Shown in pieces: positions 15,388-20,065 of a stretch of DNA of 64,000 nt. Numbering within the stretch: position 1 is the stretch's first letter; each line of letters opens with the position of its first letter. The stretch is from Gammaproteobacteria bacterium (lineage in GTDB: Bacteria > Pseudomonadota > Gammaproteobacteria > Eutrophobiales > Eutrophobiaceae): positions 1 to 64,000 of the forward strand of contig QKIY01000004.1 in assembly GCA_003250975.1 (NCBI GenBank), read 5' to 3'. A program made the translations under genes and the position numbers. The notes below the pieces were generated by a model, which searched no databases, had not been told where the DNA came from, and saw only the letters and a program-made list of their open reading frames with translations.

Positions 15388-16874
15388 CTCTGCTTGATAA
15401 AATAGAACGGGCCGGCAACCGACTGCCCCATCCAGCTACACTGTTTGCTATCGGCGTGTTGATAGTCATCCTGCTCTCACAGGTGGCCGTATCGCTGCAC
15501 TGGTCTGTCGATAGCCCCTACACTGACAACCTTGAAGCAAAAAGTCTGATGTCCAGCAGCGGTCTCTGGTGGTTAATGAGCCATTTGGTTGAAAACTTCA
15601 TTCGTTTTCCACCTCTGGCCATCGTGCTGGTCGGCATGCTGGGGATCGGCATGGCGGAACGCACGGGATTACTGCCCGCACTGCTACGCTATGTGATGGC
15701 TATAACACCTCAAATGTTATTAACACCAGTGACCCTCTTTCTTGGCATAATGTCTTCCCTAGGTCTGGATGCCGGTTATATTATCCTGCCGCCGGTTGCT
15801 GCAGCATTGTACCAGGCCGCCGGACGTTCCCCCCTGACAGGGATTGCCACCGCGTTTGCCGGCGTCTCTGCAGGTTTCAGCGCCAATCTCCTGATTACCG
15901 CCCTGGACCCTCTGCTCGCCGGTTTTACCCAGGCCGCGGCCAGTATCCTTGCACCGGACTATCAGGTTGCCGTTACTGCCAACTGGTGGTTTATGATTAC
16001 TTCAACTGTCTTGCTGACAATTACGGGCTGGGGAATTACTGCAAAATGGATTGAGCCGGCGGCCGTCAAATACACGGTCATTGAACAATCAGCTACCGAC
16101 TCTGCTTTGTCTGGGACTGCCGATGAAAAGCGCGGCCTGATGCGAGCTTTTATTGCTTTAATGATCGTAAGCGGCCTCCTGCTTGCCGCTATGGTGATCC
16201 CCGGAGCTCCGCTATTTGGTGAGGGCAAGCGGTTCGATCGATGGGTGGAAGCAACAGTGCCTATGCTCTTCCTGGTATTTTTTGTACCTGGTCTGGTCTA
16301 TGGCATCAGCACGGGGATTATTAAGAACGACCGTGATGCTGCCAGGATCATGGGACAGACATTTGCCAGCCTTGGTCCATATATTGTCCTGGCGTTTTTT
16401 GCTGCCCAGTTTATTGAGGCATTCAAATACAGTGGACTGGGTGAAATGCTGGCCATCAGCGGTGGTCAGTATCTTGCGTCTTTACAACTGCCTGCTGCTT
16501 TTCTCTTATGCGGTTTTGTCGCTCTGGCGATGGGTGCCAACCTGTTTATCGGCTCTGCCTCTGCGAAATATGCCATACTGGCGCCGGTTTTCGTACCCAT
16601 GTTAATGCAGGTAGGTTTCAGCCCGGAACTGGTGCAGGCCGGATACCGTGTTGGCGATTCCGTCACGAATGTTATAACTCCGCTCAATCCCTATATGGTC
16701 ATCATCCTTGCACTGGTCCAGCGCTATGTTCAGGGATCTGGAATGGGAACGCTTATTGCGATGATGCTGCCATACGCGGTTGGTTTTGCTTTGGTGTGGA
16801 CAGGATTGTTGACTTGCTGGATGTTACTCGGGATCTCACTGGGTCCCGGTGCCCCGCTGAATTTCAATTTTTAG
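15384..16874 (+). CDS. AbgT family transporter
   Basis: A 496-residue inner-membrane protein with the AbgT/MtrF opening ERAGNRLPHPATLFAIG and the late signature VTNVITPLNPYMVIILALVQ. Characterised members import p-aminobenzoyl-glutamate (E. coli AbgT) or export sulfonamides (MtrF, YdaH). About nine to eleven transmembrane helices plus two hairpins are expected, and the hydrophobicity agrees. It is translationally coupled to the upstream hydrolase (ATGA). In E. coli abgT sits with the abgAB peptidase genes, absent here; the hydrolase is a different fold. Confidence 0.92.
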   Translation: MTLLDKIERAGNRLPHPATLFAIGVLIVILLSQVAVSLHWSVDSPYTDNLEAKSLMSSSGLWWLMSHLVENFIRFPPLAIVLVGMLGIGMAERTGLLPALLRYVMAITPQMLLTPVTLFLGIMSSLGLDAGYIILPPVAAALYQAAGRSPLTGIATAFAGVSAGFSANLLITALDPLLAGFTQAAASILAPDYQVAVTANWWFMITSTVLLTITGWGITAKWIEPAAVKYTVIEQSATDSALSGTADEKRGLMRAFIALMIVSGLLLAAMVIPGAPLFGEGKRFDRWVEATVPMLFLVFFVPGLVYGISTGIIKNDRDAARIMGQTFASLGPYIVLAFFAAQFIEAFKYSGLGEMLAISGGQYLASLQLPAAFLLCGFVALAMGANLFIGSASAKYAILAPVFVPMLMQVGFSPELVQAGYRVGDSVTNVITPLNPYMVIILALVQRYVQGSGMGTLIAMMLPYAVGFALVWTGLLTCWMLLGISLGPGAPLNFNF

Positions 16875-16889
16875 TAATTATGCTAGAAT
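16862..16889 (+). promoter_or_regulatory. Candidate promoter of the DUF1820 gene
   Basis: TTTCAA (16862-16867) and an extended -10, TGCTAGAAT (hexamer TAGAAT at 16884-16889), are 16 bases apart. The element overlaps the last codons of the AbgT gene and gives a leader of about 44 bases. Confidence 0.4.
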
Positions 16890-16939
16890 TCAAATAAACA
16901 GCATTCGACCGCATATACAGATAATCCTTCGTTATTACC

Positions 16940-17275
16940 ATGCCTAAAAAATCGGTTTACAAGATTATTTTTCATAATCAGGACAAGATTTTTGAAATCT
17001 ATGCCAGAGGTGTTCACCATGGCGCCATGTTCGGTTTTATTGAAATTGAACATTTAATCTTCGGTGAAAGATCATCTGTTGTCGTTGATCCCTCGGAAGA
17101 AAGTCTGAAGGCGGAATTCAATCACGTCACTCGCACGTATATCCCCATGCATTCAATAATCCGAATAGATGAGGTTGATAAACAAGGCGCCTGCAAGGTA
17201 ACCCAGGATACGGGGCAAGGCAATGTAACCCCATTTCCTGTCTATACTAGCGGAGATACAACCAAGAAGACCTGA
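16940..17275 (+). CDS. DUF1820 family protein
   Basis: A 111-residue soluble protein starting KSVYKIIFHNQDKIFEIYAR, the recognisable DUF1820 opening, followed by a middle with GFIEIEHLIFGERSSVVVDP and YIPMHSIIRIDEV. The family is widespread in gammaproteobacteria and has no assigned function. The C-terminal 25 residues are polar and probably disordered. Its stop lies 2 bases from the stop of the convergent deacetylase gene. Confidence 0.82.
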   Translation: MPKKSVYKIIFHNQDKIFEIYARGVHHGAMFGFIEIEHLIFGERSSVVVDPSEESLKAEFNHVTRTYIPMHSIIRIDEVDKQGACKVTQDTGQGNVTPFPVYTSGDTTKKT

Positions 17276-17277
17276 CT

Positions 17278-18279
17278 TCAAGCCAGCTGTCCCATCAGTG
17301 TCCTTACATGATGGACGGCTGCACTGGCATTTCCCTTGATGTTGTAGCCACCTTCCAGCACAGAAACGATCTTGCCATCACAATATTGACCTGCGAGTTC
17401 CATTACTATCCTTGTCAGCTTTACAAACCCGGTATCTGTAACCCTGAAGCACCCAAGCAAATCATCTTTCCTGCTGTCAAAACCGGCCGAGATAAGTATC
17501 AATTCTGGTTTGAACGTATGAGCCTTTGGTAACAATTTTTCCTCAAAGGCAGTAATGATTGCCTCATCTCCTGATCCGCAATCCAGATGAACATTGATAT
17601 TGAACCCTTTCCCTCGGCCTGTACCGGTTTTTCGCGGGTCCCCCGTTCCAGGGTAGGCGTAATAATCATGGGTTGAGAAAAACAGCACATCAGGATCATC
17701 ATAAAATGCAGCCTCGGTGCCGTTACCGTGATGATAATCCCAGTCGATAATCAATACCCTGTTTATATTATGATACTTCTGCGCATAGCGAGCAGCCACG
17801 GCAATGCCATTAAAAAAACAGAACCCCTCTTCCCTGCCCGTATTTCTGGCATGGTGTCCTGGTGGGCGCGTAGCACAAAAGGCATTTCTCACACCTCCAG
17901 TAAATACAGCATCTGTTGCAGAAAGGACGCCACCAACCACCGCAACTGCCACTGGATAGGATGCCGGATAGTTCTTTTTTATCTGTAGCACGTGATCGGA
18001 TGAATGTATCAATTCAATATGCGGAACGACTTCCGCCAGAGGTTTTAAAAGACGGAGTTCATCTGCCAGGCCCGTATCGCGTATGAGCTGCATGAGGTAG
18101 TTTAGACGCTCTGGTGACTCGGGATGTTTTCCGGGGAATCTGTGCTCCAGATATATCTCGTCAAAAACGAAACCGGTTTGCGAGTTAACAGCGGCTGACA
18201 GGCGTGGCACAATCATGTGGTTTGCAAAACCGGATATCCCCAGTCCTGTAAGGATTTCAAGAAATTTTCTGCGCTGCAT
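17278..18279 (-). CDS. Histone-deacetylase-fold amidohydrolase with Tat-like signal
   Basis: A 333-residue class II HDAC/acetylpolyamine amidohydrolase-type enzyme that would remove acyl groups from amines using zinc. The active site is complete: RPPGHHA with the His142/His143 pair, zinc ligands Asp181 and His183 in DWDYHHGNG, and Asp268 in SAGFDSRKDD. Unusually the N-terminus QRRKFLEILTGLGISG looks like a twin-arginine signal (RR-x-FL, then a mildly hydrophobic stretch and a possible cut after LSAA near residue 30), so the enzyme may act in the periplasm. The substrate could be acetylated polyamines or another acylamide. It is monocistronic and convergent with the DUF1820 gene. Confidence 0.88.
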   Translation of the reverse strand: MQRRKFLEILTGLGISGFANHMIVPRLSAAVNSQTGFVFDEIYLEHRFPGKHPESPERLNYLMQLIRDTGLADELRLLKPLAEVVPHIELIHSSDHVLQIKKNYPASYPVAVAVVGGVLSATDAVFTGGVRNAFCATRPPGHHARNTGREEGFCFFNGIAVAARYAQKYHNINRVLIIDWDYHHGNGTEAAFYDDPDVLFFSTHDYYAYPGTGDPRKTGTGRGKGFNINVHLDCGSGDEAIITAFEEKLLPKAHTFKPELILISAGFDSRKDDLLGCFRVTDTGFVKLTRIVMELAGQYCDGKIVSVLEGGYNIKGNASAAVHHVRTLMGQLA

Positions 18280-18377
18280 CTTTTCAGAATCTTTTGGTTA
18301 ACGAATGCCATATTTTGAACTAGAATTCTGGTACAGTACCTGAAACATATTATTAAATACTAAACAATATAGTCCAA

Positions 18378-18905
18378 ATGCGTACCGGCCTCACAACACT
18401 TTTCTGCCTTATTATACTGGTATCGCCATTCAAGGTTCTGGCTGAATGGAAAGTCGAAAAATACAAGAGTAACAATCCTGACTACTCCATAAATGTTGCA
18501 GTAACTGAGAATGATGAAGGCTTCAAGCTCGAGATTTACCGGGATGAAAATGGAGTCATACGGTCGCGCTTCAGTACCGAAAACACGCCTTACCGTATGA
18601 ATAGCCAGTACTGCCCCACTTTCGATATTGTGCGGAGAGGCATGCAGAATGTATCTATCAATGGTGAAAGCTGTCTGGGAGAAAACAACTGGGCGGAGTT
18701 TATCCTCGGTTACATTGTTGGCGATGAGGTCAACTCTACCATACTTTATAATTTCATGAACGGCAGTGAAATCACATACCGTTTTATGCTGCAACCCTAT
18801 GGTTATGGCGAGACCTCATTTTCTCTAAGTAATTCCAAACGCATATTGCTGGAAGCCCTGGGCTATGATCTTGTTGTTAGTACCGAGAAGGGTTTTACCA
18901 ACTGA
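18378..18905 (+). CDS. Secreted protein of unknown function
   Basis: I do not recognise this 175-residue protein. It has a clear signal peptide (MRTGLTTLFCLIILVSPFKV, cut probably after LA at 22). The mature part is polar, beta-rich in look (alternating YSINVAV, KLEIYRD, ITYRFML) and has two cysteines (79 and 99) that could form one disulfide in the periplasm. It ends 11 bases before the DUF482 gene and may be cotranscribed with DUF482-aat-bpt. No repeats, lipobox or enzymatic motif are seen. The ATG at 18378 lacks an obvious ribosome site. Confidence 0.75.
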   Translation: MRTGLTTLFCLIILVSPFKVLAEWKVEKYKSNNPDYSINVAVTENDEGFKLEIYRDENGVIRSRFSTENTPYRMNSQYCPTFDIVRRGMQNVSINGESCLGENNWAEFILGYIVGDEVNSTILYNFMNGSEITYRFMLQPYGYGETSFSLSNSKRILLEALGYDLVVSTEKGFTN

Positions 18906-18916
18906 TTTTATCTGAC

Positions 18917-20065
18917 TTGAATTATTCAGTCCGTAGAATAGAAACACTGGCCGATGTTTCCGTGAATGAATGGAACAGGTTGGCCGGTGAGAACAATCCC
19001 TTTACAAGGCATGAATTTCTCACCGGACTCGAACGACATGATTGTCTGGCAAACCATGGCTGGTATCCCTGCCATTTACTGATAACTGACAATGACCGGC
19101 CGGTCGCAGCACTGCCGTTATATTTGAAATCAAATTCCATCGGTGAATTTGTTTTCGACTGGGAATGGGCAGAGGCCTATGAAAGCGGTGGCGGTCACTA
19201 TTATCCAAAACTTGTTTCTGCGATCCCTTTTACGCCTGTAACCGGCCCAAGATATCTAATAGCCGAAGGAGAAGACACAGTACAACTTGCACAATTGCTT
19301 CATGACGCCGCACTAGAAGTTGCGAGTGATTATGGCTTATCAGGACTGCACATTCTTTTCCCCGATTCAAAAAATAGAGAACTCATGAAAGCGCAGGGAA
19401 TGTTAACAAGGAAGGCCTGCCAATACCATTGGTTCAACCATGGCTATGCAAGTTTTGAAGACTACCTTGGAGCACTCACATCAAAAAGGCGTAGACAAAT
19501 CAGGAAAGAGCGTCGTTCCGTTGTCGAGTCTGATATCAGGTTTGAGATACTAAGAGGCTCGCAAATAACAGATAGACATTGGGAAATATTTCACAGATTT
19601 TATTCCTCGACGTTCCACAAGAAATGGGGAAGTCCAAGACTGACACTCCCGTTTTTCAAATCACTTAGCAATACCATGCCTGAATCAACCCTGTTATTCA
19701 TGGCTAATCATGCAGGCAGGTACATCGCAGGGGCCTTCGCGATGCAGGGCAGCAAGACGCTCTATGGCAGGCACTGGGGTTGTTCAGAAAACTTCAAATT
19801 TCTGCATTTTGAGCTATGTTACTATCAGACAATTGATTTTTGTATTGTAAACGGGCTGGACAGACTGGATGCCGGTGCGCAAGGTGAGCATAAGATCAAT
19901 CGTGGGTTTGTCCCCGTAGATACCTGGTCCGCCCACTGGTTTGCAGATCATGGTTTTTCAATGGCAATCGAACGATTTCTTGGACAGGAAAGATTATATA
20001 TAAACAATTTTATCAGAACGCTGGAGAATCACTCTGCCTATAAGCAGGCAGAAGAAAGAATATGA
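18917..20065 (+). CDS. DUF482 / FemAB-like acyltransferase family protein (TTG start)
   Basis: A 382-residue protein of the DUF482 family (peptidogalycan biosynthesis/recognition annotation, GNAT-like fold). Family text: NNPFTRHEFLTGLE near residue 25, YLKSNSIGEFVFDWEWAEAY, TSKRRRQIRKERR (about 190-202), and GRHWGCSENFKFLHFELCYY with DAGAQGEHKINRGF (about 317-330). The start is a TTG; no ATG or GTG allows the conserved N-terminus. Activity is unproven, with an aminoacyl- or acyl-transfer role suspected from the FemAB relation. Its stop overlaps aat as ATGA, which is suggestive because Aat and Bpt are themselves GNAT-like tRNA-dependent aminoacyltransferases. Confidence 0.85.
   Translation: MNYSVRRIETLADVSVNEWNRLAGENNPFTRHEFLTGLERHDCLANHGWYPCHLLITDNDRPVAALPLYLKSNSIGEFVFDWEWAEAYESGGGHYYPKLVSAIPFTPVTGPRYLIAEGEDTVQLAQLLHDAALEVASDYGLSGLHILFPDSKNRELMKAQGMLTRKACQYHWFNHGYASFEDYLGALTSKRRRQIRKERRSVVESDIRFEILRGSQITDRHWEIFHRFYSSTFHKKWGSPRLTLPFFKSLSNTMPESTLLFMANHAGRYIAGAFAMQGSKTLYGRHWGCSENFKFLHFELCYYQTIDFCIVNGLDRLDAGAQGEHKINRGFVPVDTWSAHWFADHGFSMAIERFLGQERLYINNFIRTLENHSAYKQAEERI

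Follow-up and report, generated by a model that had tools for sequence, protein, structure and literature searches.

The minus strand of the window (the whole stretch of DNA that was analysed, 64,000 nucleotides) encodes a histone deacetylase (HDAC)-fold protein that is probably an exported HDAC-type deacetylase. Within the HDAC family it is placed in the class-II-like part, on a branch that is well supported at the sequence level and in which an N-terminal export signal is the rule. Bacterial HDAC-type enzymes have mostly been studied as cytosolic deacetylases, as polyamine enzymes or as injected effectors. Our search of the open-access literature, by title and by the start of the abstract, found no description of an exported bacterial HDAC branch. 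In the scheme that we favour, a zinc-dependent deacetylase would fold and load its metal in the cytoplasm, be exported in the folded state by the twin-arginine translocase (Tat), lose residues 1 to about 30 after export, and act in the periplasm. There it would deacylate a lysine-like amine whose acyl group is short and probably acetyl.

An HDAC fold with an intact active site

The open reading frame (Table 1) starts with ATG, and its product begins with MQRRKFLEILTGLGISGFANHMIVPRLSAAVNS. Residues 52-328 match the complete Pfam profile PF00850 (Hist_deacetyl; profile positions 1-298 of 298). A phmmer search of PDB sequences returned 137 distinct sequences at E <=0.001 with HDAC6 on top, and the AlphaFold model, computed from an 84-row alignment (mean pLDDT 90.1, pTM 0.87), found HDAC6 CD1 (5eef_B) as its top Foldseek match (E 2.5e-30, TMq 0.85, 35% identity). 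An earlier sequence-only reading of this DNA had described an intact HDAC active site formed by His142/His143, Asp181, His183 and Asp268. Each of these residues was correctly named and is invariant among the aligned members, as is Tyr312, a position beyond those given in that reading. With all catalytic residues in place, the protein looks like a working enzyme, its activity being predicted from sequence. An Rfam scan of positions 16500-19000 gave no match, and a scan for promoters and terminators around the gene yielded nothing convincing.

Table 1. Coordinates of the HDAC gene and of the features of its product, in window positions.
Feature	Position	Strand	Basis
HDAC-fold protein CDS, 333 aa plus stop	17278..18279	-	ORF; PF00850 E 1.7e-83
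Putative twin-arginine signal peptide, residues 1-30	18190..18279	-	Sequence reading, pattern in relatives, low pLDDT
Twin arginines, residues 3-4 (CGC AGA)	18268..18273	-	Written with 23 codon pairs (75 distinct members)
Predicted mature enzyme, residues 31-333	17281..18189	-	PF00850 match, AlphaFold pLDDT
His142-His143 of RPPGHH, tandem histidines	17851..17856	-	Invariant in 84/84
Asp181, Zn ligand position	17737..17739	-	Invariant in 84/84
His183, Zn ligand position	17731..17733	-	Invariant in 84/84
Cys234, branch-specific	17578..17580	-	Cys in 79/84 of alignment, absent from L001, L103-L112
Asp268, Zn ligand position	17476..17478	-	Invariant in 84/84
Leu275, gatekeeper position (Asp268 + 7)	17455..17457	-	Nearly invariant; compared with PMC11532494
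Cys277, branch-specific	17449..17451	-	Cys in 80/84 of alignment, absent from L001, L103-L112
Tyr312 of EGGY, catalytic tyrosine position	17344..17346	-	Invariant in 84/84

The fold, the tandem histidines, the Asp-His-Asp set and the catalytic tyrosine are common to this protein and the catalytic domains of HDAC6, a cytosolic eukaryotic protein, whereas the Tat-like signal, Cys234/Cys277 and a shorter L2 region set the window protein apart. These HDAC6 domains are classed as IIb, sub-cluster 1g, in a 2024 catalogue of classical deacylases (PMC11532494). With bacterial HdaH/AcuC-like deacetylases, the window protein has in common the HDAC fold, the catalytic residues and the motifs RPPGHH and EGGY.

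The N-terminal signal and the Tat machinery

The RR-x-FL motif and weak hydrophobic stretch described in the sequence-only reading are indeed present: the Arg pair is followed by K-F-L and then by a moderately hydrophobic stretch with a best 13-residue Kyte-Doolittle mean of 1.52. Reading of the sequence suggests cleavage after a putative Ser28-Ala29-Ala30 site, so that the protein carries the features of a Tat substrate (RR-x-hydrophobic, a weakly hydrophobic stretch and an A-x-A-like site). In the AlphaFold model the mean pLDDT of residues 1-30 is 49-56 per ten residues, as for a cleavable extension, against 79-99 for the remainder.

N-termini were surveyed in the best 80 of 227 confirmed relatives in named genome contigs, a ranking by full-length query that may favour signal-bearing members. 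RR-x-[FLM] lies no more than 30 residues past a possible start in 71 of these 80 relatives. Five bear no signal (L051, L057, L072, L073, L082), two are cut at the locus end (L029, L056), L023 has KR followed by a Sec-like stretch, and L081 has a Sec-like stretch and no RR. Loss of Tat was ruled out as the cause of the Sec-like members, since TatC is present in both genomes; as these two have a Sec-like signal instead of a Tat signal, leaving the cytoplasm looks conserved though the route differs. Both come from alphaproteobacterial records, and each adjoins a fasciclin-family gene, a neighbour also seen in L065. A stricter, TATFIND-like rule accepted 50 of the 80 relatives and the window protein versus 8 of 431 flanking genes, the latter with every start among the first 100 residues admitted. 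Across the 75 distinct RR-bearing members, 23 different codon pairs encode the twin arginines, which argues that the protein sequence itself is conserved; at the second position after them, 69 of these members have Phe and 6 have Leu. The Tat-signal models of Pfam and NCBIfam gave no match to the window protein at E 10. PF10518 matches 6 and TIGR01409 8 of the 84 aligned members, more than any other family except the HDAC domain, and because most members with an evident RR miss these short models, we count a match as support and do not require it.

The sequence-only reading had named homologues without the extension as the finding that would speak against it. The survey of N-terminal signals in relatives showed the opposite, the extension being conserved in Gammaproteobacteria, Gemmatimonadota, Acidobacteriota and Fibrobacterota records, and the conserved motif supports its proposal that an HDAC-fold enzyme with an intact active site bears an export signal.

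The genome from which the window comes encodes TatC (PF00902, E 4.2e-66). TatC was likewise found in 16 of 20 genomes behind relatives (9/12 and 7/8), among them 10 of the 13 whose HDAC bears the RR signal; no TatC was found in G061, G064 and G978, which are MAGs with an RR-bearing member and with completeness not given. A second, cytosolic-type HDAC of the window's genome (contig C29, L001) starts at the domain and has no signal, and most sequences outside the branch likewise begin directly at the HDAC domain.

In P. aeruginosa PA3774, which we take to be HDAC-like, the RR on our reading sits right where the HDAC domain begins, with no separate extension, unlike in the window protein. It was a TATFIND and TatP candidate in a 2018 screen, whose reporter test 12 of 37 Tat candidates failed (PMC6085387), a rate that calls for caution with the present prediction as well. 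The 2024 catalogue does not use the terms 'signal peptide', 'periplasm' and 'twin' in its main text; it mentions secretion for type IV effector enzymes of Legionella and for host factors (PMC11532494).

A cysteine pair and the distribution of the branch

By the secondary structure of the AlphaFold model, Cys234 and Cys277 sit in loops that follow strands 227-231 and 260-266. They are found in none of the 11 paralogues, and these two private cysteines may bond as a stabilising disulphide. In a count over 197 non-redundant sequences, with three cut ones left out and L081 re-read by eye as Sec-like, 109 of the 118 sequences with a signal had the pair, as did 2 of the 76 that lack one. Signal-bearing sequences that lack the pair lie both within the branch (L181, L189, L190, L191) and outside it (L146, L223, L233, L154), and L047, with an ambiguous residue at 234, was also counted as lacking it; L177 and L178 have the pair though they are signal-less. 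On a 150-row tree built with both cysteine positions masked, each trait (cysteines, signal) changes six times, with three independent pairs of changes on well-supported branches, and there are too few independent changes for a sign test to reach significance.

The branch is separated from the paralogues by an internal branch with SH-aLRT 98. The 58 genomes searched as relatives include the window's own; 20 of them hold a branch member as judged by score (best E <1e-110), namely 19 of the 37 within the window's family and 1 of the 21 others. In the surrounding class 14 of 369 genomes pass E 1e-75, one of these (L233) lying outside the branch, and among 398 genomes drawn evenly from the phylum only the window's own reached branch level. 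In the phyla of other members we found 16 of 167 genomes at E 1e-80 (phylum of the Fibrobacteres record G068), 30 of 200 at E 1e-70 (phylum of the Gemmatimonadales record G976), 3 of 149 above 370 bits (phylum of G065) and 1 of 199, the seed itself (phylum of G067). A plasmid search gave 170 records, all below 60% identity; the matches listed reach at most 216 bits, and no branch member was recognised among those.

Three HDACs outside the branch (L146, L223, L233) have N-termini flagged as Tat-like and lack the cysteine pair, and given these sequences there may have been repeated gains of an export signal. At G019:C1:648000-648494, beside the gene of the small exported protein described below, an HDAC match covers query residues 2-163 only, at 38% identity; it is perhaps a remnant of the exported HDAC.

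Gene neighbourhoods, substrate and alternative readings

In the window the HDAC gene stands alone, convergent with a DUF1820 gene and divergent from the gene of a small exported protein. One conserved neighbourhood, found in the flanks of 22-24 of the 80 loci, comprises a family that we take to be Aat-like, DUF1820, AbgT and the small exported protein (the names DUF1820 and AbgT in relatives' flanks being taken from the window's own copies), and here the HDAC gene has no same-strand partner. The AbgT transporter was rejected as a partner: it flanks 23 of 80 loci, yet on the opposite strand and within shared synteny. The small exported-looking protein (18378-18905, plus strand) has conserved Cys79 and Cys99, a mean identity of 50% in an 18-row alignment and no confident Pfam match; it too was rejected as a partner, for 32 of the 37 genomes searched in the window's family have it, many of them without the exported HDAC.

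A different arrangement is seen in 2 of the 80 loci, where genes for an SNF symporter, the HDAC, DctP, DctQ and DctM follow each other on the same strand (L026:1580-6783, with a gap of 50 and an overlap of 4 bases; L037, with gaps of 62 and 9). This apparent operon of symporter, HDAC and TRAP transporter favours periplasmic deacetylation for uptake. In L075:3582-6449 an alpha-L-rhamnosidase with its own RR signal overlaps the HDAC gene by four bases, in L064 the gene of an exported Amidohydro_3 protein overlaps or closely adjoins it, and exported hydrolases adjoin the HDAC gene in Acidobacteria and Gemmatimonadota records. These transporter and hydrolase neighbours, present at few loci, suggest extracytoplasmic scavenging. 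Acetylated amino compounds or acetyl-lysine peptides would be cleaved outside the inner membrane and the products then imported, a role that we put forward tentatively, as one possibility among several.

Twelve of the 80 loci are of a Methylophaga type (L007, L010, L015, L016, L017, L019, L028, L031, L032, L035, L061, L070), in which the HDAC gene is followed by an RpfF-like crotonase gene and by a hybrid histidine kinase gene; no AbgT gene was seen beside the HDAC gene in these loci. The crotonase scores below the cut-off of the RpfF model and above that of PRK08788, and some of these loci have GGDEF/EAL genes upstream of the HDAC gene.

The gatekeeper segment of the window protein is Leu274-Leu275-Gly276, neither PIS nor Glu. 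According to the 2024 catalogue, a gatekeeper Glu (PEG) is linked to the polyamine preference of HDAC10, bacterial polyamine deacetylases have a PIS motif at this position, and exchange of the HDAC10 Glu for Leu makes that enzyme a better lysine deacetylase and a poorer polyamine deacetylase; the motifs RPP and XGGY are tied there to acetyl groups and not to long acyl groups (PMC11532494). With Leu275 as gatekeeper, RPPGHH, EGGY and the catalytic tyrosine, our best guess for the chemistry is short-chain, lysine-type deacetylation.

The sequence-only reading had proposed a periplasmic deacetylase of acetylated polyamines or cell-wall acylamides, and its parts fared differently: the location is backed by the predicted export signal on an intact HDAC fold, the polyamine substrate is weakened by the nearly invariant Leu where HDAC10 has Glu and the bacterial enzymes PIS, and nothing in the analysis spoke for or against cell-wall acylamides. 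An exported acetylpolyamine amidohydrolase would still accord with an HDAC fold that includes polyamine deacetylases, the bacterial ones being described as promiscuous (PMC11532494). Against it stand the gatekeeper and the L2 region, which in comparison with HDAC6 looks shorter and not extended, and no polyamine gene was recognised among the scanned neighbours; we consider such an enzyme quite unlikely. Lower still is the probability of a cytosolic AcuC/HdaH-like deacetylase with a mis-called start (the true one at Met22 or later) or with an RR arisen by chance. Met22 is indeed an in-frame ATG, the domain starts near residue 35, and signal-less relatives and the missed library models could be read in the same way, but a motif kept beside the start in so many relatives and written with such varied codons leads us to reject a chance RR or a wrong start, and the paralogues begin directly at the domain.

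Somewhat less improbable, though still unlikely, is a regulatory periplasmic deacetylase that acts on lysines of envelope proteins. The lysine-type gatekeeper, the HDAC6-like fold and the strict conservation would suit it, as would the crotonase, kinase and occasional GGDEF/EAL genes of the Methylophaga-type loci, but gene neighbourhoods vary between lineages. The reading that we prefer remains an exported deacetylase of lysine type. Its widest form, an exported HDAC lineage across several phyla that deacetylates lysines or amines in the envelope, with a disulphide that arose together with export and an envelope acetylation chemistry handled by HDACs, is doubtful, a shade more so than the uptake role.

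If the conserved export-signal branch is real, the periplasm would become a further place for HDAC chemistry, HDAC inhibitors would have a Tat-exported target within reach, and one would have to ask which acetylated compound occurs in the periplasm. Methylophaga lonarensis, Methylophaga muralis and Methylohalomonas lacus, three named species in culture, have members of the exported branch and make it testable.
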